A DNA stretch of 64,000 nt from Rhodoligotrophos sp. CJ14 (GTDB lineage Bacteria; Pseudomonadota; Alphaproteobacteria; Rhizobiales; Im1), in NCBI RefSeq assembly GCF_038811545.1, contig NZ_CP133319.1, positions 4,538,001 to 4,602,000 on the forward strand, given 5' to 3'. The translations under genes were made by a program, and so were the position numbers. The notes below the pieces were generated by a model. It searched no databases and was not told the DNA's origin. It worked only from the letters and a program-made list of their open reading frames with translations. Each line of letters begins with the position of its first letter. Position 1 is the first letter of the stretch. Of the stretch, positions 26,172 to 42,720 are shown in pieces.

Positions 26172-26936
26172 TCAGCGCCAGCGACTAAAATCCGGACGGC
26201 GTTTTTCGAGGAATGCTGTTGCTCCCTCGAGTTGTTCTCCGGTTTCGAAATAGTCCGGTGCGACCGAGTTGACGATCTCATCAAGCTCCGTCCAGTCCAT
26301 GATCTTTCGGAACGAGGCCTTGAGGATCTTCAGACATGTCGGGCTGAGGGCAAGGAGATCGTCACACCAGCGTTTAACCTCTTCGTCGAGCTTGTCTGCT
26401 GGCACGACGGCGTTGATGAGCCCCCAATCGAGCATCTGCTGCGCGGAGTGCTTACGCGCAAGCATCCACATCTCGCGTGCCCGTTTGTGGCCAATGATGT
26501 TCGCCAGATGGGCAACTATGTGCCCAGCGGCCGGAGAGCCGATACGTGGTCCGTTCTGGCCGAAGATCGAGTGTTCCGATGCGATCGTGAAGTCACAGAA
26601 ATAGGCCATGTGATTGCCCGCCGCTATCGCATAGCCATTCACACGAGCAATCGTTGGCTTAGGGCATTCGGCAAGCATCCGGTTGATCCGGAAATCGAGA
26701 TCTTTGAGGCCGCCAGCTGCTTCCCAATTCACGTCACCGCCAGCGCAGAAGGCACGGTCGCCGACCCCCGTTAAGACCACAACGCCGACATCCTTGCGCT
26801 TCGAAGCCTCTTCGATGGCGACCTCGAGCTCTCGTATCGTGTCACCCGTCAGTGCATTGAGCACCTTTGGCCGGTTGATGGCGATGGTGGCGACCTGATC
26901 CGACACTGAAAATAGGATGTCTTGCAATTCCGTCAT
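26172..26936 (-). CDS. Enoyl-CoA hydratase/isomerase family protein, BadI/MenB-like
   Basis: A 254-residue crotonase-fold enzyme. The oxyanion-hole motif is DRAFCAGGD, and the central stretch CPKPTIARVNGYAIAAGNHMAYFCDFTIASEHSIFGQNGPRIGS matches the style of BadI (2-ketocyclohexanecarboxyl-CoA hydrolase) and MenB more than that of ordinary hydratases; the end KRRPDF also fits. BadI opens an alicyclic ring by a reverse Claisen reaction. The gene is divergent from the SDR operon across the first shared palindrome (26990-27007), so it most likely belongs to the catabolic regulon. Hydratase or ring hydrolase cannot be told apart here. Confidence 0.85.
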   Translation of the reverse strand: MTELQDILFSVSDQVATIAINRPKVLNALTGDTIRELEVAIEEASKRKDVGVVVLTGVGDRAFCAGGDVNWEAAGGLKDLDFRINRMLAECPKPTIARVNGYAIAAGNHMAYFCDFTIASEHSIFGQNGPRIGSPAAGHIVAHLANIIGHKRAREMWMLARKHSAQQMLDWGLINAVVPADKLDEEVKRWCDDLLALSPTCLKILKASFRKIMDWTELDEIVNSVAPDYFETGEQLEGATAFLEKRRPDFSRWR

Positions 26937-26984
26937 TGCCGATGCTCCACGCGGGACGACGCTGCCCTGGCGACATATTAGATG

Positions 26985-27022
26985 GAAAAAATGATCTGTC
27001 GATCATTGTTCATTTTGTTGAC
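26985..27022. promoter_or_regulatory. Operator A and divergent promoter of the catabolic island
   Basis: Contains AATGATCTGTCGATCATT at 26990-27007, a perfect inverted repeat with 7-base arms and a 4-base centre. Flanking bases to 27022 (AACAATG/TCAAC side on the minus strand) match those at 37997-38033 almost base for base. On the minus strand TCGACA inside the palindrome and TAATAT 16 bases on form a promoter for the BadI-like gene; on the plus strand TTGACA at 27018-27023 faces the SDR gene. A repressor bound here would cover both. Confidence 0.75.
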
Positions 27023-27111: not shown

Positions 27112-27876
27112 GTGCTGATCGGCAATGCTGCTCTGGTCGCAGGTGGCGGCCGCGGCATAGGTCGCGCGACGGCCATCGAGCTAGCGCGACGAGGCGCTGA
27201 CGTAGCATTCCTCTATCGCAGCGATGCGACGGCGGCGGAGGAAACCGCTTCCGCCATTCGCGAGACGGGAGGGCGCGCATTCCCCATCCAATGCGACGTG
27301 GCGGATGCCGGCCAGGTGAGCGATGCATTCGCGACGGCTTTCTCCGAACTGCCAGGCATCAATATGGTGGTCAATTCGGCGGGCACGGCCGCACCCACCC
27401 GATTGGTGAACGACCTCAGTCCCGAAGTCTGGGCCCAGTGTATCGCTGTTGATCTCAACGGGGCCTACAACGTCATCCACAATGCCGTGCGCCGCCTAAG
27501 AAAGGTCGAGACAGGCGGGGCCATCATCGCCATGTCCTCGATTGCCTCACAGATGGTTCCGCCCCGGAACAGTTGCGGAGCGGCAGCGAAGGCCGGGGTC
27601 GAGGCCCTCATTCGCGTGACGGCCCGCGAAGAAGCCCGCCACAACATCCGCGCCAATGTTGTTTCCGTCGGCATCACAGACACCGATATCATCCGGCCGA
27701 TCTTCGAGAAGTGGGGTCCGGAGACCACGGCCAAGGTCTTGAGAGAGATCCCGCTCGGGCGGATCGGCCAGCCCAAGGAAGTGGCAAACATGATCGCCTT
27801 CCTGCTCAGCGAGGATGCGGTCTATGTGACTGGTAAGGTCATGCAGATCGATGGCGGTCAGTTCATTGGCGGATGA
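27112..27876 (+). CDS. SDR-family protein lacking the catalytic Tyr
   Basis: A 254-residue short-chain dehydrogenase/reductase fold. The dinucleotide motif GGGRGIG, the NSAG motif and the Ser of MSSIAS are present. The YxxxK site is not: the stretch reads NSCGAAAKAG, where Lys is kept and Gly occupies the Tyr position, with Cys one residue before. The enzyme may be inactive, or use another acid. GTG 27112 follows a strong AGGGAGGGA. It is the first gene of a three-gene operon, 28 bases before the CoA ligase. In Pseudomonas Atu clusters two SDR genes (atuB, atuG) occupy a similar context. Confidence 0.88.
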   Translation: MLIGNAALVAGGGRGIGRATAIELARRGADVAFLYRSDATAAEETASAIRETGGRAFPIQCDVADAGQVSDAFATAFSELPGINMVVNSAGTAAPTRLVNDLSPEVWAQCIAVDLNGAYNVIHNAVRRLRKVETGGAIIAMSSIASQMVPPRNSCGAAAKAGVEALIRVTAREEARHNIRANVVSVGITDTDIIRPIFEKWGPETTAKVLREIPLGRIGQPKEVANMIAFLLSEDAVYVTGKVMQIDGGQFIGG

Positions 27877-27904
27877 TCAAAACACAGGTATCCGGGAAGA
27901 ATCC

Positions 27905-29356
27905 ATGCAACCCGCGCTCTCTCGAACCAACCTACCGCTGTACATCAAGTCAATTGACTGGGATGCCTATTTCGAAGTCATTCCGCCGCCGGACGTCTGG
28001 TATAATGAGATCTTCTTGTCATGGTCAAAGGACCAGATCCGCGCCTATCAGAACCATCATTTTCTCAAGATGATGGGCCATGCCTGGAAAAACCCGTTCT
28101 ATCAGAAGCTGTGGGGGGCGGCCGGGATCGAACCGGGCGACATCACCAGCATGGAGGATCTGCAGAAGCTACCGAGCTTCGACAGCGATGACATCAAGAA
28201 GAGCTTGGAGGCCAAACCGCCCTTCGGTGAGATGTGCGGTATCGAGTTTGCGGAATTTGCCCGCAAGTCTCCGCTGAAGCTGCAGACCAGCGGCGGCACC
28301 ACGGGAATGCCGAGGCCGACGCTCTACGGGCCGCTCGAGTGGGAGTATAATGGCGCTTTCATCGCGCGGACGATCTACGCGCAGAGCGGTAGGCCCGGTG
28401 ACGTGATGCAGATCACGAGCACCCTCTCGCTCGCCAATATGGGCTGGGCTTATTACAAGGCGTGTCATGACTATCTCGGGATCGTACCGATCACCACTGG
28501 AACAGGCGTGGTCACTCCGAGCCGCCGCCAGATGGAATATGCCCGGGCCCTCGGTGTGAATGCTTGGGTGTCGTTCCCCGAATATCTCACACAGCTGGCC
28601 AAAGTCATGAAGACGGAGCTCGGGCGCGATGTACGCGAGCTCGGCACCAAATATATCTGCGCCTATCTCGGGCCGGATGTCGACAATGGACTCCGCATCC
28701 AGCTGCAGGAGCTATGGGGATGCCCCGTCTACGACAATTACGGGACTCATGAGGGCGGTGCTCTGGCCTTTGAGGCAGAGGATCAGGAAGGTCTTTACTT
28801 CATGGAGGATGCCGTCATATTCGAGTTCCTCGATGTGGAGACCGGACGCCCGGTGCCGACTCGGCAAGCAGGGGATATCTGCATCACCCACCTCCATCGC
28901 CATATACCGCCACTGATCCGCTATAACCTCCGCGATCTCGGCCGGATCAAATATGACGGGGCGAGTGCACTCGGCAGCAACTTCCGACGCATGGACAAGT
29001 TCCTTGGCCGATCGGACCAGATGGTCAAGATCCGGGGGGTCAACATCTATCCAATGGCCTGTTTGCAGGCCGTTCGCAGCGATGATCGCTCGACCGGTGA
29101 ATGGATCTGCATTGCTACTCGGCACGAACGGGATGGGGTGCTGCGTGACGAGCTGACGGTCCGGATTGAATTGAAGAGCGACGGGCGTTCCCGCGAGGGC
29201 TTGAAAGAATATTACGAGAACCGCCTGCAGAATGATCTTGGCATCAAGATCGGCGTGGAGTTCGTGGAAGAAGGCAACCTGCCTGAGGCGAATATTGGCA
29301 AAGAAGGCAAGCCGCGCCGGTTGATCGATGAACGCGGCACGGTTAAAGCCTCCTGA
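27905..29356 (+). CDS. Phenylacetate--CoA ligase-like acyl-CoA synthetase
   Basis: An adenylate-forming enzyme of 483 residues, activating a carboxylic acid with ATP and CoA. It starts at ATG 27905. The AMP-binding P-loop is QTSGGTTGMPRPT; further motifs are YDNYGTHEGG, RYNLRDLGRI, KFLGRSDQMVKIRGVNIYP and the C-terminal catalytic Lys region NIGKEGKPRRLIDER. The architecture is PaaK-like, so a small, possibly cyclic or aromatic acid is more likely than a long fatty acid. It lies between the SDR and the TetR-hotdog gene and would make the CoA thioester that enters the pathway; in Pseudomonas the equivalent step is given to AtuH. Confidence 0.92.
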   Translation: MQPALSRTNLPLYIKSIDWDAYFEVIPPPDVWYNEIFLSWSKDQIRAYQNHHFLKMMGHAWKNPFYQKLWGAAGIEPGDITSMEDLQKLPSFDSDDIKKSLEAKPPFGEMCGIEFAEFARKSPLKLQTSGGTTGMPRPTLYGPLEWEYNGAFIARTIYAQSGRPGDVMQITSTLSLANMGWAYYKACHDYLGIVPITTGTGVVTPSRRQMEYARALGVNAWVSFPEYLTQLAKVMKTELGRDVRELGTKYICAYLGPDVDNGLRIQLQELWGCPVYDNYGTHEGGALAFEAEDQEGLYFMEDAVIFEFLDVETGRPVPTRQAGDICITHLHRHIPPLIRYNLRDLGRIKYDGASALGSNFRRMDKFLGRSDQMVKIRGVNIYPMACLQAVRSDDRSTGEWICIATRHERDGVLRDELTVRIELKSDGRSREGLKEYYENRLQNDLGIKIGVEFVEEGNLPEANIGKEGKPRRLIDERGTVKAS

Positions 29357-29358
29357 TC

Positions 29359-29376
29359 GAACCGCTGCAGCGGTTC
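29359..29376. repeat. Perfect 18-base palindrome before the regulator gene
   Basis: GAACCGCTGCAGCGGTTC is self-complementary without a loop. It lies between the ligase stop (29354-29356) and the ATG at 29402. It differs from the AATGATC operators. It could be a separate regulator site, a weak attenuating hairpin or chance; no T tract follows. Confidence 0.45.
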
Positions 29377-29401: not shown

Positions 29402-30541
29402 ATGACCGTCGCGGCGGAAGATCAGGACAAGCGTCTGCGCAAAGGCCGACGTGCCGAAAAGAGCGAGTTGACCCGAAACCGTCTCTTTGAGGCGGCCATC
29501 CGCCTCGTGGGTGATCGCGGCTATGCGGGTTCGACCATTCGCAAGATCACGTCACATGCGCGCATCGCTCATGGCACCTTCTACAACTACTTCGAAAGCC
29601 AGCAGGATATTTTTGATCAGCTCTTACCTTACTTGGGAGAGAAGCTGAGGCAGTATCTCGAGACGAGGCTTGAGGACAATGTGAGCTTTTTCGAGCGGCA
29701 GGATGTGCTGCTCGTGGCATTTGACGATTTCATCCAGGAAAATCCGGCTTTCTACCGCGTCTTGACTGAGGCGGAAGTCTTCGCGCCAAAGGCCTACAGG
29801 GTATATGTCGCAGACAACGTAGAATGGTTCATTCGGCATTTCTCAGCCGACCGCCGGCGCGGTGAGTTTGATGCGATCCGGGAGCAGCAGCTCGAAGTCA
29901 TCGCTTTCATCCTGATGGCGTCCCATCACTATCTGAACATGCGATTCAGCAACTGGATGGGTGAAGTGACGCGCATGCCGAGCTGGGCTGTCGAAACGTT
30001 CCGCGACTTCGTGCGTGGCGGTATGATGAGCGTTAACGGCAGGCAGGATCTGATCGAGCCACCCGTGCAGGCGGACTTGACCGCTCCAGCCGCATCTTCG
30101 GCACCCGCCTCAGCCGATCAGCCGACGGAGATCGTCAAGTTCACCCCGCGGCCTGCCGATACCGAGCTGTCCTACAGTGCACAATCGATCCAGCTCGATT
30201 GCCGCACCACCCATATCGAGCGCGGGCATGTGGTTGTGGAACTCGATGTCGATCGCCGCACGCTTAACAGTCGTGGCGCTGTATCAGGCGGCACACTGAC
30301 GGCACTGATGGAGATTGCCGGGGCTGCGGCCATGCATGACCGCGCACACCAGTTATCGGCCGAAACGATCAGCATCAATTGCACGGTGATCCGGGCCGCG
30401 ACCGAGGGAGTGCTTTGTGCTGATAGCCGGGTAGAAAATGCCGGCCGCAACATTCGTTTTGTCACCATAAGGATTACGCTCGACGGCGTCGATGGGCCCT
30501 TGATCGCGCAGGGGACTGTCACCTACCGCGTGATCGAGTGA
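29402..30541 (+). CDS. TetR-family regulator fused to a PaaI-like hotdog domain
   Basis: A 379-residue fusion. Residues about 25-72 are a TetR DNA-binding domain (TRNRLFEAAIRLVGDRGYAGSTIRKITSHARIAHGTFYNYFESQQDIF), 80-210 the helical TetR ligand/dimer domain. An Ala/Pro-rich linker (225-245) joins a hotdog thioesterase-like domain at 250-379 with GAVSGGTLTALMEIAGAAAM, the position of PaaI HGG...LAD; His is Ser and Asp is Glu here, so catalysis is doubtful. An acyl-CoA-sensing role is inferred, comparable in logic to FapR, which joins a different HTH to a hotdog that binds malonyl-CoA. It most likely binds the palindromes at 26990 and 38013. The stop abuts the convergent AtuA gene. Confidence 0.9.
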   Translation: MTVAAEDQDKRLRKGRRAEKSELTRNRLFEAAIRLVGDRGYAGSTIRKITSHARIAHGTFYNYFESQQDIFDQLLPYLGEKLRQYLETRLEDNVSFFERQDVLLVAFDDFIQENPAFYRVLTEAEVFAPKAYRVYVADNVEWFIRHFSADRRRGEFDAIREQQLEVIAFILMASHHYLNMRFSNWMGEVTRMPSWAVETFRDFVRGGMMSVNGRQDLIEPPVQADLTAPAASSAPASADQPTEIVKFTPRPADTELSYSAQSIQLDCRTTHIERGHVVVELDVDRRTLNSRGAVSGGTLTALMEIAGAAAMHDRAHQLSAETISINCTVIRAATEGVLCADSRVENAGRNIRFVTIRITLDGVDGPLIAQGTVTYRVIE

Positions 30542-32332
30542 TCAGGCATCATCGAGGAGCGCGACCGGCATCTCGATCGGCATGTCGAGCAGCATCTGCG
30601 CAAAGCCTTTTCCGAGCGGATCATTGCGCAGAGAGGCCACCCCGCCCCCGTCGAGGGCCTCGTGCAGTAGGAAGTTGAAGGCATCGAACCCGGGAAGAGC
30701 ATAACGTTGGACCGGGCCATGGGCCAGATGAGCGAAGTAGGCCTTCACGGCTTCCGCTGTGACCTGTTCGGCGATGATTGGGAGATAGGCTGATTTGCGG
30801 GCGATGACGCCGATATTCACGGTGTTTCCCTTATCGCCGCTGCGCGCAACAGCAATATCGGCCAGAGCCATTCTCCTCGATGGCCCGTCCCAATCGGGTG
30901 AAGTGGCTTCCTTGAATTGCGCTGGAGCCGGAGGCTGAAAGGGCTCGCCCCGGGCGACCACGACCGGATGGCGCTGACCATTGATGTCAATCTCTATTTC
31001 CACCCGGTTCTTGGGCCAAAGGAAGGAGAACAGCCGCACGAGCGGCGTCACGTCTGGCCGCCCGCCGACGAGACTGCAACGGCCCGGACCCATGGCCGTT
31101 CCGGCCGGCGCGATCTCGCGTGTAAAGATCTTGAGGGCTTCGGCCTCGTCATGATGTACGTCGAGGCGTAACAACTGCTCGCGTGATTGCATGGCGCCTT
31201 GCCGAGCATGAGGACCATAGACGTCCTCAGCGCCGATAATCTTGAGGCTTACACGACGGTAGTCACCAAACCCGCGTTCTCGGAACAGGCGCCGAGTGCG
31301 AGCCAGGATGGCCCCGCCGACCTTCTCGATCTTCGCCCGATTATTGCGCCCGACCATGGTGAACATCGCAGTTGAGCGGAAGCCGTCCTGATATGTTGCG
31401 CTCACCTTGTAACTGTCGGTTGCTACACGGCCGCGGGCCCCCTTCACCTCGACACGATCATGGCCGAGATCCGTCAGGCTGACATGCGTGAAGTCGCAGA
31501 TGACGTCAGGAAGGATATAGGTCGCAGGCTCACCCAGTTCATAGAGCAGTTGCTCGCCAACTGTAAGCGGGGTGACGAGCCCGCCGGTTCCTTCCGGCTT
31601 GGTCACGATGAAGCTGCCATCCTCGGCGCAGTCGACGATGGGAAACCCCATATCCTCCCATCCTTCGACCTGTTCCCAGTCGGTAAAGTTCCCGCCAACT
31701 GCCTGAACACCACATTCGACGATGTGCCCCGCGAGCGAGCCGCCCGCCAATCGGTCATAATCCGAAGCTTGCCAGCCAAACTCGTGCATCAGCGGAGCCA
31801 GCACAATGGCGCTATCTGCGCAGCGACCCGTGATGACCATATCGGCACCCAGCTCTAGAGCAGCGCGGATGGGTTCGGCACCCAGATAGGCATTCACGCT
31901 GTAGAGGCTTTCCGGCAGACGGGAGCCATCGTCCATGTGTTCGACATCGGCCGCCCGCAATTCGGCTTCCCTCAGCATGAGGTCATCGCCCAGGACGACT
32001 GCGATCTTCAGATTGAGGCGCTGCTTGTCGATAAGATCTGCTAGCGCATCTCGACAGGCGAGGGGATTGATACCCCCGGCATTGGCAATGACCTTTGTCC
32101 CAGTCTCGGCAATACGCCCGAGGAGCCCACGCATCGTGGGGGAAACGAAGTCGCGGGCATAGCCGAGCCGCGGATCCTTAGCCCGAGCACGCGCCAGGAT
32201 CGACATCGTGACTTCGGACAGATAATCGAAGACCAGATAGTCCACGCGATCCCGGTAGAGCAGTTGGCGGGCACCATCCTCGCTATCGCCCCAGAAGCCG
32301 GAGGCGCAGCCAATCCTGATCCGCTTGGACAT
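30542..32332 (-). CDS. AtuA-family acyclic terpene utilisation protein
   Basis: A 596-residue member of the AtuA/DUF1446 family, beginning RIRIGCASGFWGDSEDGARQLL, with the conserved KVIANAGGINPLACRDAL and VITGRCADSAIVLAPLMHEFGW and a C-terminal AtuA-like alpha/beta domain (ALADIAVARSGDKGNTVNIGVIAR). In Pseudomonas, AtuA is needed for citronellol/geraniol catabolism but its reaction is not settled. The gene is last in the five-gene minus-strand operon and overlaps the biotin carboxylase stop by one base (TAATG). Terpene catabolism as such is inferred from the family name and neighbours. Confidence 0.9.
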   Translation of the reverse strand: MSKRIRIGCASGFWGDSEDGARQLLYRDRVDYLVFDYLSEVTMSILARARAKDPRLGYARDFVSPTMRGLLGRIAETGTKVIANAGGINPLACRDALADLIDKQRLNLKIAVVLGDDLMLREAELRAADVEHMDDGSRLPESLYSVNAYLGAEPIRAALELGADMVITGRCADSAIVLAPLMHEFGWQASDYDRLAGGSLAGHIVECGVQAVGGNFTDWEQVEGWEDMGFPIVDCAEDGSFIVTKPEGTGGLVTPLTVGEQLLYELGEPATYILPDVICDFTHVSLTDLGHDRVEVKGARGRVATDSYKVSATYQDGFRSTAMFTMVGRNNRAKIEKVGGAILARTRRLFRERGFGDYRRVSLKIIGAEDVYGPHARQGAMQSREQLLRLDVHHDEAEALKIFTREIAPAGTAMGPGRCSLVGGRPDVTPLVRLFSFLWPKNRVEIEIDINGQRHPVVVARGEPFQPPAPAQFKEATSPDWDGPSRRMALADIAVARSGDKGNTVNIGVIARKSAYLPIIAEQVTAEAVKAYFAHLAHGPVQRYALPGFDAFNFLLHEALDGGGVASLRNDPLGKGFAQMLLDMPIEMPVALLDDA

Positions 32333-34287
32333 TATGCGGCCTCATCGATCGAGATTTCCGCAAGGACGTGCTGCGCGGTAACCTGTTCACCGACGCGAGC
32401 ATCGAGCACGGTCACCACGCCATCAACCCCGGCGCGAAGCTCCGTTTCCATTTTCATGGCTTCGAGCACAACGAGACAATCACCCCGAGCGACGCGGTCC
32501 CCGACACAGACGAGCACTTTCACCACGCAGCCCGACATCGGCGCCCGCAGGCGCCCATCCGATGCTATGTCTTGAAGCCCGCGTGCCTGCTCATCAATCT
32601 CCGAGAATGTGGCGTAGCGTCCCTGCCAAACGATCTCGACAGTACTCTTGCTCCGGGCAAAGGTGGCATGCTCCAGCATGTCGCCGACCCGCAACGTGAG
32701 CGTGTCCTCATTGAGAGTGATCGGTGTCACCTCGAACCGGCTATGCGCGAGTGTTATCGTCGCGGTGCCGTCGATATGGCGTTCGATCATCACCACAGTC
32801 TTGTCATTGCCATCGAAGCGAATTCGCCAGCTCGCTCCGCCCGCCTCTCGCCACTGGCGAACCGACATGCCCAGCGGCCAGCACAGCAGAAGCGCCGCAA
32901 CGGCTTGTTCGAAGGCCTCTGGCTCGTCGGCCCGGGCAAGACCATCAGCCTGCGCGAGATAATCCGTCGTGATGGTGCCGCTGACAAAAGCGTCATCTTT
33001 CAACAAGCGCGTGAGATATCGCCGGTTGGTGCCCACCCCGAGGATGATCGTATCTTCCAAGGCGCGGTCGAGCGCACGCCGGGCATCCTCGCGAGTGGGA
33101 CCCCAGCCGATGATCTTGGCAAGCATCGGGTCATAGAACGGGGTAACGCTCTGGCCTTCATGAATGCCCGAGTCAACGCGGATGCGGGGGCCGCTGGCCG
33201 GGCGCCAGCGAGTGATCGTGCCTGTCTGCGGAAGGAAGCCTGCGGATGGATCCTCTGCATAGAGGCGAGCTTCAATGGCACTGCCCGTAAAGGAAATATC
33301 CTGCTGCTCTAACCCGAGTGGCTGACCGGTAGCGACGCGGATCTGGAGCTCCACCAGATCGACGCCGGTGATCATTTCCGTAACCGGATGCTCGACTTGA
33401 AGCCGGGTGTTCATTTCGAGAAAGAAGTGTTTGCCCTTCTGATCGAGCAGGAATTCGACGGTCCCGGCGCCCACATAGCTGATCGATCTGGCCGCGGCGA
33501 CCGCGTCGGCACAGATCCGCTGCCGCTGCTCGTCATTGAGGGCAGGCGAGGGGGCTTCCTCGAGAATCTTCTGATTGCGGCGTTGCGTCGAGCAGTCGCG
33601 TTCACCGAAGTGGAGGACCTTACCATGGGCATCTCCCATGATCTGCACCTCGATATGACGCGCGGAAATGAGCGCCCGTTCCAGATAGAGAGTACCATCG
33701 CCAAAGGCGTTGCGCGCTTCGGACGAGGCCGTGTTCATGGCCGGCAAAAGCTCGGCTTCGCTGTGCACCAGCCTTATACCTCGACCGCCACCACCTGCGG
33801 CGGCCTTGATCATCAGAGGAAAGCCAATTCGCCGCACGGCTGCGGCCATGGCTTCGGGGCTCTGGTCTGCGCCGCGATAACCCGGAATGCAGGGAACGCC
33901 GGCAGCCTCCATGCGCTCCTTTGCCATCCGCTTATCGCCCATGGCCCGGATGGCCTCGGGAGATGGGCCGATGAAAATAATCCCAGCCTCAGCGCAGGCG
34001 GCAGCAAACTCCGCATTCTCGGAAAGGAAACCATAGCCGGGATGGATTGCATCGGCATTGCTGAGGCGCGCGGCAGCGATGATCGCGGGGGTCGAAAGAT
34101 AGGATTTGCCGACGGGGGCTTCCCCGATACGGATGGCGCGATCGGCAGCCATGACATGTGGCGCATCGGCGTCAGCGTCACTAAAGACGGCGATGCCGCG
34201 ATAACCGAGCTCCTTCACGGTACGCAATACGCGCACGGCAATCTCGCCGCGATTGGCGACGAGAATGGTTCGAATCCCTGCTGGCAT
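32332..34287 (-). CDS. Acyl-CoA carboxylase alpha subunit (biotin carboxylase-BCCP), AtuF/LiuD-like
   Basis: ATP-dependent biotin carboxylase and carrier in one 651-residue chain. The N-terminal carboxylase has ILVANRGEIAVRVLRT, the ATP-grasp Gly-rich loop KAAAGGGGRGIRLV, and FLEMNTRLQVEHPVTE. The C-terminal carrier has the biotinylation motif EAMKMET. It would pair with the beta subunit at 36298 to carboxylate an alpha,beta-unsaturated branched acyl-CoA such as geranyl-CoA or 3-methylcrotonyl-CoA. ATG 34287 overlaps the preceding hydratase stop as TGATG; an in-frame start at 34308 would overlap it by 22 bases. Confidence 0.93.
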   Translation of the reverse strand: MPAGIRTILVANRGEIAVRVLRTVKELGYRGIAVFSDADADAPHVMAADRAIRIGEAPVGKSYLSTPAIIAAARLSNADAIHPGYGFLSENAEFAAACAEAGIIFIGPSPEAIRAMGDKRMAKERMEAAGVPCIPGYRGADQSPEAMAAAVRRIGFPLMIKAAAGGGGRGIRLVHSEAELLPAMNTASSEARNAFGDGTLYLERALISARHIEVQIMGDAHGKVLHFGERDCSTQRRNQKILEEAPSPALNDEQRQRICADAVAAARSISYVGAGTVEFLLDQKGKHFFLEMNTRLQVEHPVTEMITGVDLVELQIRVATGQPLGLEQQDISFTGSAIEARLYAEDPSAGFLPQTGTITRWRPASGPRIRVDSGIHEGQSVTPFYDPMLAKIIGWGPTREDARRALDRALEDTIILGVGTNRRYLTRLLKDDAFVSGTITTDYLAQADGLARADEPEAFEQAVAALLLCWPLGMSVRQWREAGGASWRIRFDGNDKTVVMIERHIDGTATITLAHSRFEVTPITLNEDTLTLRVGDMLEHATFARSKSTVEIVWQGRYATFSEIDEQARGLQDIASDGRLRAPMSGCVVKVLVCVGDRVARGDCLVVLEAMKMETELRAGVDGVVTVLDARVGEQVTAQHVLAEISIDEAA

Positions 34288-35114
34288 CACATCCTCGTTT
34301 GCCGCCATGAAGGCGCGCGCTTTTCCCTGAAAGCGGCAGCACCCTCGATGCCCTCAGCCCCCTGGGTCATGCGGGAGATGATCTGCGAGGCTTGATCCAG
34401 GAAACCGGACTGGTCGGTGAGTTCAGCCTGTCTAATCAGCTGCTTGGCCACCGAAATCGCGCCCGGGGCACCCCGGTCGATCTCATTCGCAAGGGCGGCG
34501 ATACGCTGTTCGATGGCCGCCTCATCCGGGCACAATTCATCGATGATGCCGATTCGATAGGCCTCGGCCGCATCTATTCGCGCGGCCGTCAGTGCGAGCC
34601 GGCGCAATCGCGCAGGCCCTATGCGGCGCAGCAGGAAGGGCACGATTTGTGCCGGTGCGAGGCCAAGCGTGACCTCCGGCAAGCCGAAACGAGCGGTGGA
34701 GGAGCCGATCACGATGTCGGCCGCGCAGGCAAGGCCAAAGCCACCCCCCAGTGCGGGTCCTTCGACCACTGCGATGACAGCTTGTGGCGCTTCATCGATG
34801 CGTGAAAAAATAAAGCCGGCCCGGCGGTTCCGCTCGGCAACGGGATCGCCCCCCTCCAGTGGGGCATTGTCGCGCAACTGCGAGCGCTCGCCGATATCCC
34901 CGCCAGAACAAAAGGTTCCCCCGGCACCGCGCAGCACCACGATCTTGATCGACCGGTCGGGGGCGATCGCCTGGAACACCGCGTTGATCTGGTCCCACAT
35001 TGCACTGTTCAGCGCATTGCGTACGGCTGGGCGGTTCAACGTGATGAAGAGGGCTGCACCCTTACGATCGAGCAGCAGCGTTTCACAATCAGGCAAGGCG
35101 CTGCTCATGATCAT
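34287..35114 (-). CDS. Enoyl-CoA hydratase/isomerase, AtuE-like
   Basis: A 275-residue crotonase. The oxyanion motifs are GTFCSGGDIGE and VEGPALGGGFGLACAADIVI, with a Glu-rich substrate region IIDELCPDEAA. In the Atu/Liu pathway this position is filled by the enzyme that hydrates the carboxylated glutaconyl-CoA-type product; that role is inferred. The start overlaps the acyl-CoA dehydrogenase stop by ATGA (35111-35114); ATG 35108 is an alternative start. Confidence 0.9.
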   Translation of the reverse strand: MIMSSALPDCETLLLDRKGAALFITLNRPAVRNALNSAMWDQINAVFQAIAPDRSIKIVVLRGAGGTFCSGGDIGERSQLRDNAPLEGGDPVAERNRRAGFIFSRIDEAPQAVIAVVEGPALGGGFGLACAADIVIGSSTARFGLPEVTLGLAPAQIVPFLLRRIGPARLRRLALTAARIDAAEAYRIGIIDELCPDEAAIEQRIAALANEIDRGAPGAISVAKQLIRQAELTDQSGFLDQASQIISRMTQGAEGIEGAAAFREKRAPSWRQTRM

Positions 35115-36280
35115 GCCCGCTTGTTACGACCGGGCAGGATTCCGAGCTCCTTGGAGATGATCGCCATCATCACCTCATTCGCGCCGCCGCCAATCGCCAC
35201 CAGGCGGCTGTCGCGGAGGATGCGCGAAACACGCGATTCCCACAGATAGCCCGCACCGCCCCAGAACTGCAGGCATTGGTCGGGGATTTCACGGGCGAGT
35301 TTACCGGCCTTCAGCTTGGCCATGGCAGTGAGCAGCTTGACGTCCTCACCCTTCACGTAGTTCTCGACTGCTGTGTAGGTCAGGCAGCGTAATGCCTCGA
35401 CCTCGGTCGCCATGTCGCTCAAGGTGTAGTGGATCCACTGGTTGTCTAGCAGCGGCTTGCCGAAGGCGACACGCTGACCGGTATATTCGATGGTCGCGTC
35501 GATCAAACCCTGCATCTGGGTCACGGTGCGGGCGGCCGCAAACAGGCGCTCTTCAGCGAACTGCTCCATCTGATAGATGAAGCCCATGCCCTCCTCGCCA
35601 ATCAGGTTTCGGCGCGGCACGCGAACATTGTCGAAAAAGACCTGCGCGGTATCGGATGCCCACAACCCGAACTTTCGCAGCTTGGTCGAGCGGTCGATGC
35701 CTTTGGCATCCATGGGAACGACGATCAGCGACTTGTTCTTGTGCGGACCGTTTTCGTCGCTGGTATTTGCAAGCAGACAGATCCAGTCGGCCTTGGTGCC
35801 GTTTGTGGTCCACATCTTTCCGCCGTTGATCACATAGTCATCGCCATCCCTTCGGGCATAGGTCTTGATGCTGGCGACGTCTGATCCGGCCCCGACTTCA
35901 CTAACGCCCAGGCAGCCCACATAGTCGCCGGCGATGGTCGGTGCAAGGAACTCGCGGCGGAGTTCGTCATTGCCGTGCTTGGCCAGGGCGGGGGTGCACA
36001 TGTCGGTCTGCACCCCGAGCGCGGAGGCAATGCCGCCACAATGGATGGTCCCGAGAGCCTCGGCCCAGATCGTGCTGTAGCTGTAGTCGAGCCCGAGCCC
36101 GCCGAACTCGACCGGCTTGCTGATCCCGAGGAACCCCGCATTGCCAGCCTTCTTGCAGATCTCGTGGCTGGGAAACTGCTCGATGTCTTCCCATTCCTGG
36201 ACGAAAGGGTTGATTTCGGTATCGATGAACCGACGCAGCGAGCGGCGCAGTTCTTCATGCTCAGGGCCGAAAATCGTCAT
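35111..36280 (-). CDS. Acyl-CoA dehydrogenase, AtuD-like (branched acyl-CoA)
   Basis: FAD-dependent dehydrogenase of 389 residues that introduces an alpha,beta double bond. Family landmarks are CLGVSEVGAGSDVASIKT, the FAD segment FWGGAGYLWESRVSRILRDSRLVAIGGGANEVM, and FGKPLLDNQW. The usual C-terminal catalytic Glu segment (YEGTNEI) reads IGGGANEV, as in citronellyl-CoA and isovaleryl-CoA type enzymes whose base lies elsewhere. The N terminus closely resembles AtuD in style (EHEELRRSLRRFIDTEINPFVQEWE). The gene starts 17 bases after the carboxylase beta stop. Confidence 0.92.
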   Translation of the reverse strand: MTIFGPEHEELRRSLRRFIDTEINPFVQEWEDIEQFPSHEICKKAGNAGFLGISKPVEFGGLGLDYSYSTIWAEALGTIHCGGIASALGVQTDMCTPALAKHGNDELRREFLAPTIAGDYVGCLGVSEVGAGSDVASIKTYARRDGDDYVINGGKMWTTNGTKADWICLLANTSDENGPHKNKSLIVVPMDAKGIDRSTKLRKFGLWASDTAQVFFDNVRVPRRNLIGEEGMGFIYQMEQFAEERLFAAARTVTQMQGLIDATIEYTGQRVAFGKPLLDNQWIHYTLSDMATEVEALRCLTYTAVENYVKGEDVKLLTAMAKLKAGKLAREIPDQCLQFWGGAGYLWESRVSRILRDSRLVAIGGGANEVMMAIISKELGILPGRNKRA

Positions 36281-36297: not shown

Positions 36298-37908
36298 CTA
36301 AAGGCGGGCAGCGCCAAAGGTTATTGGTTGGAGTTGGCGTGCTTCTGCTTCGTGGCAGGTCCTCAGGCAGAACGCCAGGACTCGGCGGCTGTCGCGGGGA
36401 TCGATGATGCCGTCATCCCACATGCGCCCGGTGGCGGCGAGTGCGGTCGATTCCGCTTCGACCTTCTGAATAATGGCGACCCGAGTAGCCGCCATCCGCT
36501 CCGGGTCCGGCGTGCGGCCCTTTCGCGCGAGCTTCTGTTCAGTGACGATTTCCATGACGGTAGCGGCCTGTTCGGCGCCCATGATCGATATCCGCGAATT
36601 GGGCCAGGCGAAGATGAAGCGTGGGTCGTAAGAGCGACCGCACATGCCGAAATTGCCGGCACCAAACGAGCCACCGATGAGCAGAGTGATGCTAGGTACC
36701 GGGGCATTCGAGACAGCTTGGATCATCTTGGCGCCATGCTTGATGATGCCCGCGCGCTCCGCGTCACGGCCAACCATGAAGCCTGTCGTGTTCTGCAGGT
36801 AAATGATCGACTTTCGTGCTTGCGAGCAGAGCTGGATGAACTGCGCGGCTTTCACAGCCGCTTCCGGGAAGATCGGGCCATTATTCCCGATCAGGCCGCA
36901 CTGCATACCTTCGATGGCTGCAAATCCGCAGAAGATCTGGCTACCGAAATCCTTCTTGAACTCCAGGAAATCCGAGCCATCCACCAGGCGCGCCACAACC
37001 TCGCGCACATCGTAGCGTTTGCGGTAATCCGTCGGGACGACACCGGCCAGTTCATCGGGAGAGTAGAGCGGCTCCTGCCAGTTCTGCGACGCCGGTCGCT
37101 CCTGCCATCCGAGTGAGCCGATGACGTTACGAGCGATCTCGATCGCCTCTGCATCGTTATCGGCGAGAAATTCGGCCGTTCCTGCGACCATGCCATGCAT
37201 GTCGGCACCGCCGAGCTCTTCGTCATCGGCGATCTCGCCGGTAGCCGCCTTCAGAAGGGGTGGGCCGGCGAGGAAGACCTTGGCGCGACCTCTCACCATA
37301 ATGCAGTAATCCGACATGCCGGGGAGATAAGCGCCTCCTGCCGTGCAGGAGCCGTGCACGATAGCGACCTGCGGAATGCCCGCGGCCGAGAGCTTGGCCA
37401 TATTGTAGAAGCGTCGGCCTCCCTCGGCGAATAGCTCGGCCTGATAGGCGAGGTTCGCACCGGCGCTTTCGACCAACAGAACGACCGGGAGGCGGTTCGC
37501 CAGGGCGATCTCCTGCGCCCGAAGATACTTCTTTAGCCCCATGGGCATGGTCGCGCCGCCCTTGATGGCACTGTCATTGGCAATCGCCATCACACGGGTG
37601 CCATTGACGAAGCCGATCTGAGCGATCACCGAGCCGCCAAGCACGTTCTCGACCCCGTCATCGTCATGCATTCCTAGCCCAGCCAGGGGGGTGAGACTGA
37701 GAATCGGGCTGCCTCGGTCGAACAATCGCGCAAGGCGCTCGCGGGGGAGCAGTTGACCGCGCTCTTCGAACCTCGCTCGCGCAAGCTCGGAGCGTGCCCG
37801 CACCTTGTTCTCTAGGGCGTCCACCTCGGCAATGAGCGCAAGCATCGCTTCGCGCTGGGTGGCGAAGGTCTCGCTTGCCGGATCGATGGTGCTTCTGAAG
37901 GGCGGCAT
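36298..37908 (-). CDS. Acyl-CoA carboxylase beta subunit (carboxyltransferase), AtuC/LiuB-like
   Basis: Biotin-dependent carboxyltransferase of 536 residues from ATG 37908, which follows a GAGG ribosome site; the frame is open to 38004. Family motifs include RERLARLFDRGSPILSLTPLAGLG, ANDSAIKGGATMPMGLKKYLRAQEIA and LLIGGSFGAGNFGMCGRSYDPRF. The last is the acyl-CoA oxyanion region; its GFGMCGR-like sequence resembles geranyl/methylcrotonyl carboxylases, not propionyl ones. It is first in the five-gene minus-strand operon and lies beside operator B. Together with the alpha subunit at 32332 it forms the alpha-beta carboxylase of the pathway. Confidence 0.93.
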   Translation of the reverse strand: MPPFRSTIDPASETFATQREAMLALIAEVDALENKVRARSELARARFEERGQLLPRERLARLFDRGSPILSLTPLAGLGMHDDDGVENVLGGSVIAQIGFVNGTRVMAIANDSAIKGGATMPMGLKKYLRAQEIALANRLPVVLLVESAGANLAYQAELFAEGGRRFYNMAKLSAAGIPQVAIVHGSCTAGGAYLPGMSDYCIMVRGRAKVFLAGPPLLKAATGEIADDEELGGADMHGMVAGTAEFLADNDAEAIEIARNVIGSLGWQERPASQNWQEPLYSPDELAGVVPTDYRKRYDVREVVARLVDGSDFLEFKKDFGSQIFCGFAAIEGMQCGLIGNNGPIFPEAAVKAAQFIQLCSQARKSIIYLQNTTGFMVGRDAERAGIIKHGAKMIQAVSNAPVPSITLLIGGSFGAGNFGMCGRSYDPRFIFAWPNSRISIMGAEQAATVMEIVTEQKLARKGRTPDPERMAATRVAIIQKVEAESTALAATGRMWDDGIIDPRDSRRVLAFCLRTCHEAEARQLQPITFGAARL

Positions 37909-37996
37909 ATACGCCTCGTTGCGATGGCGGTCGGCTAGAGGGGGAGCGGCGGGGCGGTCCCCCTGGCGGCAGAATGTGTCAGCCCTGCCAAAGCTC

Positions 37997-38033
37997 GTCA
38001 ACAAAAATGAACAATGATCATCTGATCATTTTT
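37997..38033. promoter_or_regulatory. Operator B and divergent promoter of the Atu-like and ABC transporter operons
   Basis: Contains AATGATCATCTGATCATT at 38013-38030, with 8-base perfect arms around TC. The preceding GTCAACAAAAATGAACAATG matches the complement of operator A except for one inserted A. Minus-strand TTGACG and CACATT, 17 bases apart, may be the carboxylase promoter. The box lies 105 bases from the carboxylase start and 113 from the binding-protein start. Confidence 0.75.
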
Positions 38034-38142
38034 GTTCGACAAAGAACAGCGCCGATGCTAGCGTTCAATGGACTTACCGATCAGAACGTCAGCCAATGGC
38101 GCTGTCCGGAGTCCTGGCGATCCCATGGGAGGGAGGAGTTCC

Positions 38143-39333
38143 ATGAAGTGGTTTCAGCTTGCGGCTTCGGTCGCTGCATTTGGTATTGCGGCGATGATGC
38201 CTGCAAAGGCCGACGAGACATTGAAGCTTGGTATGTCCGCCGTTCTGTCCGGGCCCGGTGCGTTTTACGGCACTGGCGCTGTTTGGACGGCTGAGCAGGC
38301 AGCCAAGGCGATCAATGAAGCCGGCGGGATCAAAGCGGGCGGAAAAACCTACAAGCTCGAGATCGTCGCCTATGACAACAAATATTCGGCGACGGACGGG
38401 GCGAAGGTGGCGCAAACGCTGATCGTCCGCGACGGGATCAAGCACATCATAGCGACCCAGTCGACCGCTGCCGTTTCTGCGCTGCAGGCCATTTCTGAGC
38501 GCCGTGGCGTTCTGCACTTCACGGGAGCTTGGGGTAAGCGATTGCGCGGCAAGGAATTCCCCCTGACCTTCACGATGCTGAACAGCCCCGGTGAGATACT
38601 GCAGCCTCTCTACACCTTCATCCAAAAGACATATCCCGAGGCGAAGAGGGTTGCATTGCTGAACCCCAATGACGCGACGGGTCAGGACATTCAATCCGCC
38701 TCCATCGAGAACTGGAAGGCGCTGGGTTATGAGATCGTGAGCGACGACTTGTTTGAGCGCGCGACCACCGATTTCGCTCCGATAGCGACCCGCATGATCG
38801 CCGCTAAGCCAGACATTATCGACGTGGGCGGCACACCGCTGCCGAATGCCGGCCAGCTGTTCAAGGAGCTGGAGATCCAGGGCTGGAAAGGCGTCAAGAT
38901 CGCGTCGGCCGGATCGTCCCCCGCCGCACTGGTGAAGACGGGTGGAGCTGCCGCCGAGGACGTCTATATGGGACTTGCTGCGGTCTTCACCGGAGACAAG
39001 GCAACCGAGATCGAGAAGGCGCTCAACGAGCGGGCTATCAAAGAGCTTGGCCAGCCGCTCGATCAGGTAACGATTTCTCCATGGGATTCGATCGCGGCTC
39101 TAAAGGCAGGGATTGAGAAGGCAGATAGCATCGAGCCGGAGGCCATTGCCAAGGTCTTGCCGGAGATCGTCTTCGAATCCTCCTATGGCCCGGCCGCTTT
39201 TGGTCTGGCTGACGTTTATGGACTTCCCAACCAGATGCTGCTGCCGGTGATCATAAGCCAGATCAAGAATGGTGAAGCGGTAGAGATTGCGCGCATCAAT
39301 CCGGCAGAGCTCGCAAAGAAGCTGGGCCAGTGA
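38143..39333 (+). CDS. ABC transporter substrate-binding protein, LivK-like
   Basis: Periplasmic binding protein of 396 residues (type I fold, Peripla_BP_6). ATG 38143 follows GGGAGGAG; the signal peptide is MKWFQLAASVAAFGIAAMMPAKA. Mature sequence starts DETLKLGMSAVLSGPGAFYGTGA, as usual for the family. The family is named for branched-chain amino acids but also binds aromatic acids, urea and amides. The shared operator with the Atu-like operon suggests that it captures the island's own substrate. A 7-bp hairpin follows at 39345-39362. Confidence 0.92.
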   Translation: MKWFQLAASVAAFGIAAMMPAKADETLKLGMSAVLSGPGAFYGTGAVWTAEQAAKAINEAGGIKAGGKTYKLEIVAYDNKYSATDGAKVAQTLIVRDGIKHIIATQSTAAVSALQAISERRGVLHFTGAWGKRLRGKEFPLTFTMLNSPGEILQPLYTFIQKTYPEAKRVALLNPNDATGQDIQSASIENWKALGYEIVSDDLFERATTDFAPIATRMIAAKPDIIDVGGTPLPNAGQLFKELEIQGWKGVKIASAGSSPAALVKTGGAAAEDVYMGLAAVFTGDKATEIEKALNERAIKELGQPLDQVTISPWDSIAALKAGIEKADSIEPEAIAKVLPEIVFESSYGPAAFGLADVYGLPNQMLLPVIISQIKNGEAVEIARINPAELAKKLGQ

Positions 39334-39344
39334 TGTGCCCTGAG

Positions 39345-39362
39345 GCGACAGGCAACTGTCGC
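39345..39362 (+). repeat. Stem-loop between the binding-protein gene and its permease gene
   Basis: GCGACAG and CTGTCGC pair around GCAA. No T tract follows. Hairpins at this place often stabilise the binding-protein message and raise its level over the permeases; that is inferred. Confidence 0.45.
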
Positions 39363-39426
39363 TCACTGCCTCCATCGAAATGGCGGCTCCAGTACCCCGA
39401 ATGTCCAGCGCATCCTGGAACAGGCC

Positions 39427-40311
39427 ATGAGCACTTTCGTCCAGCTTCTGATCAATGCCGTGCAGATCGGCGCAATCTATGTGCTGTTTTCGCTGGGGCT
39501 CACCCTGATCTTCGGGGTGATGAGGATCATCAATTTCGCACATGGCGAGTTCTTTAGCTTAACAGCGCTGCTGATTTCCGTGCAGGTGGGCTGGTTGACG
39601 AGCCAGGTTGGGCTGCCACCCTGGGCAGATTATCTGCTGGCATTTGCTGTGGCGCTGGTGGTGCTGCTGATCATCTCGGTCCTCGTCTTCCGGTTCGGCT
39701 TTGCACACTACCTTGGGGACATGACATCGGGCTTCATCCTGTCTTTGGGCCTTGTGCTCATTATGCAGGGGGGCATGCTGGAGCTCTTTGGCGGCTACCC
39801 GCGCTCTGTTCCTGCGCTGGTTGAGGGCAGCATCACAGTGTTGGGTGGCGCAATCTCGCTACAGAAGCTGTTGATCTGTGCGTTGGCTTTGGCTGCCACT
39901 GGAGCAATCCTTTTCATGGTGATGCGAACGCCGCTCGGCGTTTCCCTGCGCGCCGTGGCGGAAGACCAGGAAGCCGCAATGCTGCAAGGCATCCGCTATC
40001 GACGTATAGCCCTCTATGGTTTCTTGATCGGCTCGGCTCTCGCGGCGCTTGCGGGGGGCCTGATCGCGCCTCTGGCGGTCATTCTACCCTCCATGGGCGG
40101 AGAGTTCCTGATCAAGGCATTCATGATCGTGATCATAGGCGGGCTCGGCAGCATTCCCGGCGCCATTCTCGCGAGCTTTCTGCTCGCCGCCATCGAGAGC
40201 TTCGGTTCCTTCTACGTGGATCTTCCCACCGCGACGATCGGCATGTTCGTGCTTGTGGCCGTGGTGCTGGTCCTCCGACCACAGGGATTACTTGGCCGTG
40301 TCGTCCGATAA
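39427..40311 (+). CDS. livH: ABC transporter permease, LivH-like
   Basis: Inner-membrane permease of 294 residues with about eight helices. The N-terminal signature VQIGAIYVLFSLGLTLIFGVMRIINFAHGEF and the EAA-like region LRAVAEDQEAAMLQGIRYRRIALYGFLIGSALAALAGGL are diagnostic of the LivH half. It pairs with the LivM-like permease that begins inside its last codons. Confidence 0.93.
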   Translation: MSTFVQLLINAVQIGAIYVLFSLGLTLIFGVMRIINFAHGEFFSLTALLISVQVGWLTSQVGLPPWADYLLAFAVALVVLLIISVLVFRFGFAHYLGDMTSGFILSLGLVLIMQGGMLELFGGYPRSVPALVEGSITVLGGAISLQKLLICALALAATGAILFMVMRTPLGVSLRAVAEDQEAAMLQGIRYRRIALYGFLIGSALAALAGGLIAPLAVILPSMGGEFLIKAFMIVIIGGLGSIPGAILASFLLAAIESFGSFYVDLPTATIGMFVLVAVVLVLRPQGLLGRVVR

Positions 40312-41251
40312 CCTGTCTCGTCTTGCGGTTGCCGTCGGTATTACGCTCGCGGCCTACTGCCTCTTGGCGCCCACGGATTTCGTCGTCCAGGTGATCCTGT
40401 GGATGGCACTGGCTGCAGTCATTGCTGCTGCGATGCGCTTCGTGATGCTGATTGGCGAATTCAACATGGCGACCGGCGCCTTCTATGGCATCGGAGCCTA
40501 TACCGCAGGGTATATTGCGACCAGCCTTGACTGGCCTTTGCTCCTCACGATCCCAGTGGCGGGAGTCGTAGCGGGATTGGTTGCGCTCGCCTTGGGCTAT
40601 GCCACCATGCGGACGTCGGGTGCCTATTTCATGCTGATCAGCTTCGCATTCGCGGAGATCATGCGGCTCTTCTATGTGGAGTCGGATTTCCTCGGCGGCA
40701 ACAACGGCATTCTGGGCATTTTGGTCCCCGCCTGGATCGAGCCCTATTATCCTGCTTTCGTTGTCATCGTCTGTATGATGCTCATCGTTGCTCTGGCGGT
40801 GGTAGAACGATCCCACCTCGGGAAGATCTTTACGGCAATTCACAACAACGAACAGGTCGTGCGATCCGTGGGCATCAATGTGCTTGCCATGCGGGTGACC
40901 TGCCTGGTTATTGCCAGCATCGTTCTAGGGATCGCCGGCTCACTTTATGCCTATGTCGCCTCGGTGATCAGCCCCGGCGACTTCACCTTTATGCTCTCTG
41001 TATTCGCGCTCGCCTATGTAAAGCTCGGCGGTGACAAGCACCCGGTCGGTCCGGTATTGGGCGCGGCGCTGCTCACTCTTGTCGCACAGTACTTGCTGGG
41101 CTTTGGCGCCTATGATCAGCTCTTTTACGGCATCGTCATTGTGATGGCGATGCTCGCCTTGCCGAACGGATTGCTGGGGCGTCTCGCGCAGCTCCGACTT
41201 GTAAAGCCCCTGGCGGCAGCCCTGCACAGTCCGGGAGGCCGCGATGCTTGA
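40298..41251 (+). CDS. livM: ABC transporter permease, LivM-like
   Basis: Second permease half, about 317 residues from GTG 40298. The frame is open from 40253, but that part is only an extension across the livH end. Characteristic segments are [58 protein letters not shown] and [42 protein letters not shown]. It overlaps livH by 14 bases and livG by 8, consistent with coupled translation. Confidence 0.9.
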
Positions 41252-42011
41252 CCGGCCAGGCGCCGCCTCGAATGCACACAAGCTACTGCTCGAAGCCCGG
41301 GGCATCACCAGGCGCTTCGGTGGACTGCTCGCCGTGAGCGATCTGACATTCGAGCTACGCGAAGGAGAAATTTTGGGGCTGATTGGCCCGAACGGCGCGG
41401 GCAAGAGCACCACCTTCAATTTATTGAGTGGCTTCTATCGGCTCACATCGGGCTCGATCAGCTTCCTCGGAGAGAGATTGGAGAGCGGACATCCCTGGAA
41501 GGCCGCGCGGCGCGGGCTGATCCGCACTTTTCAGCACGACAGTCTGCTCAAAGATATGACTGTCTATGACAACATCCTGATTGGCGCCTGCCAGAGCATT
41601 CGCAGGCCCAGCGAGCGCGACACGCGCGTGCGTGAGACGGCGAGGATCATGCATCTGGACGGCCTCTTGGATGAGACGGCGCGTAACCTGCCGCATGGTC
41701 TGCAGCGGATGCTCAGTATGGCCATCGCCTTTGCCGGCAGACCGAAGCTTTTGTGCCTCGACGAGCCGCTGACTGGGCTGAACCAGACCGAGGCGGCCGA
41801 GGCACTCAAGGTCATCCGAAGGCTGCGCGATGAGTTTGGCATCTCGATCCTTTTCGTTGAGCACAACATGCGGGCGGTTATGTCTCTATGCGACCGCATT
41901 GTGGTCCTGCACCACGGCCGAAAGCTCGCATCAGGCACGCCTGCGGAGATCAGCAACGACCCCGTGGTGATCGACGCCTATCTTGGAGGCGCGATCGATG
42001 CCGCAGACTGA
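41244..42011 (+). CDS. livG: ABC transporter ATP-binding protein, LivG-like
   Basis: A 255-residue cytoplasmic ATPase. Walker A is GPNGAGKST, the C-motif region reads [16 protein letters not shown] (a divergent signature), Walker B is [12 protein letters not shown], and the switch His is in FVEHNMRAV. The LivG subfamily tail ([11 protein letters not shown]) is present. ATG 41244 overlaps livM, and the gene end overlaps livF. Confidence 0.92.
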
Positions 42012-42720
42012 TGCCATTCTCGACCTGCGTGGGGTCCACCTTCGCTACCAGAAGGTTCACGCGGTTCGCGGTGTCGACATGGTGGTCCGCTCGGGCCGGT
42101 TGACCACGATCATCGGCTCCAACGGCGCCGGCAAGACGACCATCCTCAAGGCGGTGACCGGCCTTCTCAAGCCGAGTGAGGGACACATCCTGTTCTGCGG
42201 CGAGGATATTGCCGGACGCGAGCCCGATGACATCGTGCACCGGGGTATCTCGCTGGTGCCGGAGGGACGGCGTTTATTTGGTCCCCTTACTGTCCGGGAA
42301 AACCTGAATATCGGCGCCTATCTGCGCACCGACAGAGCCGCCGTGGTCCGGGATTTCGATAAGGTCATGGCCTATTTCCCCGATCTTGTCGCCAAGCTGG
42401 ATGATCGCGCTGAGAGCTTGAGCGGCGGGCAGCAGCAGATGGTGGCTGTCGGAAGAGCGCTGATGGCAGCGCCTCGCCTCCTGATGTTGGATGAACCGAC
42501 GATTGGCCTAGCGCCTAATCTCGTACGCACGATCGGCAAGATCATTAAGACGATCAGCGATAATGGCACCGACGTGTTGTTGGTGGAGCAAAACGCGTCC
42601 ATCGCCCTGGCTCTCTCATCCGAAGCCTATGTGCTAGAGAACGGAATGATCGCCATGCAGGGGCCGTCCGCGGAACTTGCTGCGAGTGAGAACGTAAAGC
42701 GAGCCTATCTCGGAAACTGA
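41998..42720 (+). CDS. livF: ABC transporter ATP-binding protein, LivF-like
   Basis: The second ATPase, 240 residues from ATG 41998. Walker A is GSNGAGKTT, signature LSGGQQQMVAVGRALM, Walker B LLMLDEPTIGLAP, switch His replaced by Gln in VEQNASIAL, as usual in LivF. The typical LVPEGRRLFGPLTVRENL segment is present. Last gene of the importer operon; no clear terminator follows. Confidence 0.93.
   Translation: MPQTDAILDLRGVHLRYQKVHAVRGVDMVVRSGRLTTIIGSNGAGKTTILKAVTGLLKPSEGHILFCGEDIAGREPDDIVHRGISLVPEGRRLFGPLTVRENLNIGAYLRTDRAAVVRDFDKVMAYFPDLVAKLDDRAESLSGGQQQMVAVGRALMAAPRLLMLDEPTIGLAPNLVRTIGKIIKTISDNGTDVLLVEQNASIALALSSEAYVLENGMIAMQGPSAELAASENVKRAYLGN

Follow-up and report, generated by a model that had tools for sequence, protein, structure and literature searches.

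A single gene in the window, as we call the whole 64,000-nucleotide stretch of DNA that was analysed, encodes a TetR-type regulator joined to a C-terminal hotdog domain. On the sequence evidence the fusion is taken as real, that is, as one polypeptide with two complete domains. The explanation that we tentatively place first, at a little under an even chance, is that the product is an acyl-CoA-responsive, FadR_Sa-like TetR repressor of the catabolic cluster in which it lies, and that its flexibly tethered PaaI-type hotdog binds, and most likely hydrolyses, acyl-CoA. Among the observations in its favor, both domains are complete and significant in one frame, and the neighboring genes are predicted CoA-ester enzymes. 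The positions of all these features are given in Table 1.

Table 1. Positions in the window of the fusion gene, its parts, the surrounding genes and the candidate operators.
Feature	Position	Strand	Remarks
TetR-hotdog fusion gene	29402..30541	+	379 codons, single open frame
TetR unit, residues about 12-209 (HTH 29-73 and helical ligand domain)	29435..30028	+	profile, 6EL2 alignment
Linker, residues 213-262	30038..30187	+	22 of 50 residues Pro, Ala or Ser
Hotdog domain, residues about 263-379 (~117 residues), TIGR00369 type, PaaI/THEM2/EntH clan	30188..30538	+	
Active-site stretch	30266..30313	+	Asn289 30266-30268, Ser295 (replaces HGG His) 30284-30286, Glu304 30311-30313
Crotonase-family enzyme, MenB/BadI-like; presumed target unit	26172..26936	-	profile
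SDR oxidoreductase	27112-27876	+	upstream of fusion gene, same direction
PaaK-like CoA ligase	27851-29356	+	upstream of fusion gene, same direction
AtuA	30542-32332	-	profile
Biotin carboxylase with biotinyl domain	32332-34308	-	profile
Enoyl-CoA hydratase	34287-35114	-	profile
Acyl-CoA dehydrogenase	35111-36280	-	profile
Carboxyltransferase, start uncertain	36298-38004	-	profile
Branched-chain-type ABC uptake system	38068..42720	+	LivK, LivH by profile; LivM, G, F by eye from ORFs
Candidate composite operator 1	26980..27022	.	exact palindrome 26990-27007 and arm GTTCATTTTGTTGAC; the BadI-like and SDR genes diverge from it
Candidate composite operator 2	37997..38041	.	exact palindrome 38013-38030, inverted AACAAAAATGA-like arms; the carboxyltransferase and LivK genes diverge from it

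The sequence-only reading of this DNA had described one 379-residue protein combining a TetR regulator with a PaaI-like hotdog, and the description is borne out by the open frame and by profile scores above their cut-offs. In an hmmscan, residues 29-73 match Pfam TetR_N (PF00440; E 1.3e-10, 41.3 bits against a cut-off of 24), which marks a TetR HTH, and residues 292-360 match Pfam 4HBT (E 1.7e-7), both above cut-off. The NCBIfam hotdog thioesterase domain model TIGR00369, with a cut-off of 36.6 bits, gives 47.8 for the full protein and 51.1 for the hotdog alone. A TetR profile built from relatives ends at residue 209. The linker, with its 9 alanines, 7 prolines and 6 serines, is flexible-looking by eye. 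An AlphaFold2 model of the fusion protein made without an alignment had a mean pLDDT of 40.3 and was too poor for use.

The joining of two genes by an assembly or sequencing error, a failing that the earlier reading had raised against itself, is highly improbable. GC contents at codon positions 1, 2 and 3 are coding-like in all three parts of the gene (0.59, 0.37 and 0.70 in the TetR part; 0.66, 0.58 and 0.72 in the linker; 0.64, 0.48 and 0.68 in the hotdog part), both alternative frames contain stops, and the genome is complete in one contig (100% complete, 0.76% contamination); on these grounds the fusion is considered real. Between residues 227 and 276 the frame also offers no ATG, GTG or TTG at which a separate hotdog gene could start. 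What speaks for an error is that the fusion is missing from every other sampled genome.

Third in the SDR-ligase unit, the fusion gene is convergent with AtuA, and the stops of the two genes touch at 30541/30542. The claim that the neighboring genes make and consume CoA thioesters is upheld by profile matches, at the level of predicted enzymes. The cluster looks accessory: in two same-genus genomes the nearest counterparts of its AtuA and carboxyltransferase are distant, at 54% and 49%, which is about the level of the second copies in the genome of the window itself (55% and 48%), and a search of one further genome of the family gave no AtuA counterpart at E 1e-60. A second AtuA cluster of this genome (L089, C1:1078501-1098500) has a different, unfused TetR gene between its AtuA and liv genes, and pairs of AtuA and carboxyltransferase genes with similar spacing are present in both same-genus genomes. 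Located 3' of the liv operon of the window is an ORF of 1749 codons (43582-48831) with many imperfect repeats, whose C-terminal end is autotransporter-like by eye.

Matching sites at 26990 and 38013 had also been proposed, and these prove to be the only exact palindromes of their kind in the genome. The pattern AATGATCN4GATCATT occurs exactly at two places in 4,813,108 bases, 26990-27007 and 38013-38030, one in each divergent intergenic region of the cluster, and its backward control occurs at none. Genome-wide, 4 further places match with one mismatch and 19 with two (23 in total), which is a point against the explanation placed first. Only the exact palindrome is special, since within the window 5 matches with up to three mismatches are found where 2.75 are expected. 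The flank GATCATTGTTCATTTT(T)GTTGAC is common to both sites, and the composite pattern is present at 2 places in this genome and at none in the same-genus genomes G001 and G002. These features make the two palindromes good candidate operators.

The arm GTTCATTTTTGTTKAC was searched with up to two mismatches. It is found at 3 places in the genome of the window (G000; backward control 1), which are the 38-kb site, a position that precedes the first matched codon of L003, an unfused paralogue, by about 125 bases, and 876826; the 27-kb site, in which one T is missing, is not matched by this search. G002 has 4 places (backward control 0), one of which is exact and precedes L009, an unfused relative, by about 125 bases. 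In G001 there are 3 places (backward control 2), none of them next to the TetR relatives that were found in this genome. The operator arms of the window were turned into a weight matrix, which was scanned over 36 upstream stretches, that of the fusion gene included, with 200 shuffles each. The scores of L009 and L003 were reached by 0 of 200 shuffles and that of L136 by 1 of 200. L003 and L009 are probably of one lineage and therefore provide a single independent support for the operators belonging to this TetR type. Upstream of L002, the closest relative (46% identity), the matrix finds no site, the score there being equalled in 174 of 200 shuffles, nor does it find one upstream of the 41-43% relatives L016, L017 and L018 (10, 7 and 40 of 200). 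This silence, together with the backward controls of 1 and 2 in G000 and G001, counts against the explanation placed first.

Two-arm inverted sites are present before further unfused TetR relatives, at about 10170-10220 in L043 and about 9475-9525 in L042, and these two are alike by eye across about 45 bases. Directly 5' of the fusion gene, the 45-base gap contains a perfect 18-base palindrome of another sequence, GAACCGCTGCAGCGGTTC, at window positions 29359-29376; it is the single match within the window at up to three mismatches, with 0.09 expected.

Both candidate operators are composite, a form that would suit a hotdog serving as an oligomer module. PaaI and 4HBT-II hotdogs are described as dimer-of-dimers tetramers (PMC2698920, PMC13114782), and dimers or tetramers of this PaaI-type hotdog could tie TetR dimers together, for cooperative binding to a composite operator or for an 11-kb loop between the two sites. 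We regard such a role as quite improbable. Similar two-arm sites are shown by L003 and L009, which are unfused and have no hotdog, and an oligomer state is readable neither from the sequence nor from a structure model of the quality obtained.

The best solved relative of residues 15-187 is 6EL2 (E 4.2e-24), a structure of FadR_Sa of Sulfolobus acidocaldarius (PDB 6EL2/6EN8); the runner-up is at 1e-9. The alignment to 6EL2 over this range, and to unfused relatives until their ends, predicts the all-helical C-terminal ligand and dimer domain of the family. 6EL2 is reported to contain FadR_Sa with lauroyl-CoA, and FadR_Sa is described as the repressor of a 30-kb fatty-acid cluster that is freed from its DNA by acyl-CoA but not by acetyl-CoA, CoA or free fatty acids (PMC6449355). 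As so described, it resembles the window protein in that a large acyl-CoA catabolic cluster is controlled via few dyad sites; it differs in having no hotdog. Among the residues of FadR_Sa that were compared, Arg73 and Phe97 are kept in the fusion protein, as R83 and F107. Lys77, Arg86 and Met101 correspond to E87, F96 and I111, and Phe68, Phe111, Phe126 and Arg132 to L78, L121, V136 and W142. The positions of the acyl pocket are thus predicted to remain hydrophobic, and the CoA grip to be mostly altered relative to FadR_Sa. Only one of the four polar CoA contacts (Arg73, Lys77, Arg86, Arg132) is matched by a similar residue of the fusion protein, R83, which again counts against the explanation placed first.

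The unfused TetR relatives L002, L003, L009 and L016-L020 are 37-46% identical to the fusion protein across the TetR unit. They differ from it in the absence of a hotdog from their ORFs, and L003 and L009 have the operator-like arm in common with the window cluster.

The solved matches of a ten-member hotdog profile (A3) are headed by THEM2, with SaPaaI (4M20) at 7e-13. Relative to the PaaI, THEM2, EntH and 4HBT-II thioesterases, the window hotdog scores above the TIGR00369 cut-off and preserves the positions of the catalytic Asn/Gln (Asn289) and Asp/Glu (Glu304). It differs from them in having Ser295 in place of the HGG His and in being attached to a transcription factor. It also falls below the cut-off of the PaaI equivalog TIGR02286 (24.9 bits vs 118.9). 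In homologue rows that are partly redundant, the Ser295 column is His in 22 of 22, the Glu304 column is Asp in 21 and Glu in 1, and the Asn289 column is Asn in 15 of 22. At four columns where all nine A3 homologues agree the window hotdog is unlike them, namely T287 (His), S295 (His), E304 (Asp) and A308 (Gly), and these substitutions are a further point against the explanation placed first. The five glycines that are invariant in A3 are retained.

The sequence-only reading had reported two of these changes, HGG to SGG and LAD to LME, and took both as signs of possibly lost catalysis. The letters are as it gave them, S295 for the HGG His and E304 for the Asp; the conclusion is not supported, as Glu serves as the catalytic acid in related enzymes and Asn289 is kept. 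SaPaaI is reported to use Gln32 and Glu47 in catalysis, alanine at either abolishing activity, and the catalytic residues named for AsACT and EcACT are Glu73 and Gln48/Glu63, respectively (PMC13114782). With Glu catalytic in all three enzymes, Glu304 instead of Asp would not by itself be a mark of inactivity. Asn289, Ser295 and Glu304 have the same spacing as SaPaaI Gln32, His38 and Glu47, which suggests that His38 is the HGG His. His38 is described as forming an inter-subunit hydrogen bond to Thr48, and it is not among the two residues reported as tested and found essential (PMC13114782). The change from His to Ser at HGG is unusual; PDB 2QWZ, a hotdog deposited as phenylacetic acid degradation-related, likewise aligns with Ser at this position. 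With Asn289 and Glu304 at the catalytic positions, the essential role of SaPaaI His38 not reported and Ser also found in 2QWZ, activity remains plausible, and in our judgement the hotdog is probably a working thioesterase.

The main rival to this explanation is that the hotdog is a second, FapR-like sensor, a non-catalytic domain that binds an acyl-CoA, for instance a carboxylated pathway intermediate, as an effector altering DNA binding by the TetR half. We consider this rather unlikely. Hotdog sensing is known in FapR (PMC3536700, PMC516016), and the loss of a His found in every homologue row, the three further columns that depart from all nine A3 homologues and the retained glycines would all be compatible with a hotdog put to a changed job. 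The neighboring genes, moreover, are predicted to produce carboxylated acyl-CoA. The presence of Asn289 and Glu304 at catalytic positions argues against it, as does a TetR half that has its own full ligand domain and is related to an acyl-CoA receptor. FapR of Bacillus and Staphylococcus, whose hotdog takes malonyl-CoA as effector, is like the window protein in joining an HTH to a hotdog for CoA-ester regulation; as described, its HTH is DeoR-like, its hotdog is the sole effector domain, and switching involves an amphipathic linker helix that moves between the DNA domains and the hotdog (PMC3536700). The window protein differs in its TetR HTH with a ligand domain and in its long linker rich in Pro, Ala and Ser, in which no sign of a FapR-type helix is seen by eye. 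In NCBIfam, which presumably includes a FapR model, no such model matches at E up to 10, a search in which the HMMER filters drop most weak matches.

If the fusion protein is instead a FadR_Sa-like repressor with a hydrolytic hotdog, it would bind the two composite sites and repress four units, which are the BadI-like gene, the SDR-ligase-regulator unit, the carboxylase-AtuA unit and the Liv uptake system. From the likeness to FadR_Sa, a CoA thioester formed by the PaaK-like ligase or at a later step would bind the TetR ligand domain and release the protein from DNA. The tethered hotdog may bind this CoA thioester, or one related to it, and, given the kept pair Asn289 and Glu304, cleave it, which would lower the signal near the repressor and reset the switch. 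We give an even chance to the proposal that the protein is a dual-receptor or self-clearing factor, in which the attached hotdog senses a second acyl-CoA or destroys the inducer, and that hotdog recruitment was independent of FapR. Were this true, the switch would gauge the balance of two CoA esters or reset itself, TetR and hotdog would form a second, separately built link of the hotdog fold to gene control, and the protein would possibly be a regulator that clears its own inducer. Since the two candidate operators are clean and the target cluster is defined, one protein and two DNA probes would suffice to test the idea.

The full protein was used as a query against 61 genomes of relatives (E 1e-20) and samples of 385 genomes from the class (1e-40), 398 from the phylum (1e-15) and 367 from the order (1e-40). 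No second TetR-hotdog fusion is found in these four samples, which overlap and include the genome of the window, in which up to 5 candidates per genome (class and order) or 4 (phylum) were scored, and in which a fusion with diverged halves could escape. With the hotdog alone as query, 14 of the 385 class genomes match at 1e-8, this genome included. Profile scans of ORFs of at least 90 codons at loci L001-L124 and L125-L142 place both domains in one ORF in the window gene only, which appears there as L001, L021 and L055. In a scan of GTDB contigs for close relatives, 146 stretches matched the pattern, of which one encodes a relative (28%, residues 1-145) and none a fusion. Plasmid protein searches gave 40 matching records, the best from Neorhizobium and Azospirillum, and in none of them does a single place cover 80% of the protein. 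Viral contigs scanned for TetR relatives yielded 6 loci, all weak. Because the fusion is known from one genome only, no cross-species conservation stands behind a regulatory role of the hotdog, and the reach of the finding is limited. Judged from titles and the starts of abstracts in the open-licence literature searched, no listed paper reports a TetR-hotdog fusion. Fusions of hotdogs to enzymes have long been described (PMC516016), and FapR is the known hotdog regulator; new here is a TetR regulator with an added hotdog.

Co-occurrence of such fusions with AtuA clusters in general, which the sequence-only reading had proposed to check, is not seen. Forty AtuA regions, one of them the second cluster of this genome, were scanned of 67 other places, and none holds a fusion. 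A TetR gene of the window profile is present in 12 of the 40 and a hotdog gene in 5, two of which (L105, L113) are from one genus; in 3 the two occur together as separate genes. No enrichment of hotdogs in AtuA regions is claimed from these counts. These unfused PaaI-like hotdog genes are a point in favor of a passenger, that is, of a cluster thioesterase that was fused to the regulator when a stop codon was lost, its domain working independently of the TetR half. Hotdog fusions that arose through stop-codon loss between neighbors have been described (PMC516016), the linker is flexible-looking, and the fusion has been seen once. In L036, L043, L092, L105 and L113, however, which hold both genes, the hotdog gene is never directly 3' of the TetR gene on one strand. 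Nor does the linker look by eye like a translated intergenic gap, and there is no close donor, the hotdog rows being 16-29% identical over the aligned domain and 23-38% over local matches. We regard a passenger fusion as improbable.

Several long frames were considered as fusions and rejected. The frames of L022/L049 (497 aa) and L024/L050 (318 aa) have N-terminal parts that overlap better frames by eye and give no TetR profile match. The ORFs of L015, L018, L020, L131 and L142, where TetR matches lie in long open frames, contain no hotdog. In L092 the TetR frame of 443 aa encodes a tandem TetR-TetR protein with two TetR_N and two TetR_C_24 stretches. In that AtuA cluster, which is from another genome, two tandem hotdog genes face the tandem TetR-TetR gene (L092 15669-17899), and the second hotdog has Glu instead of the usual Asp.
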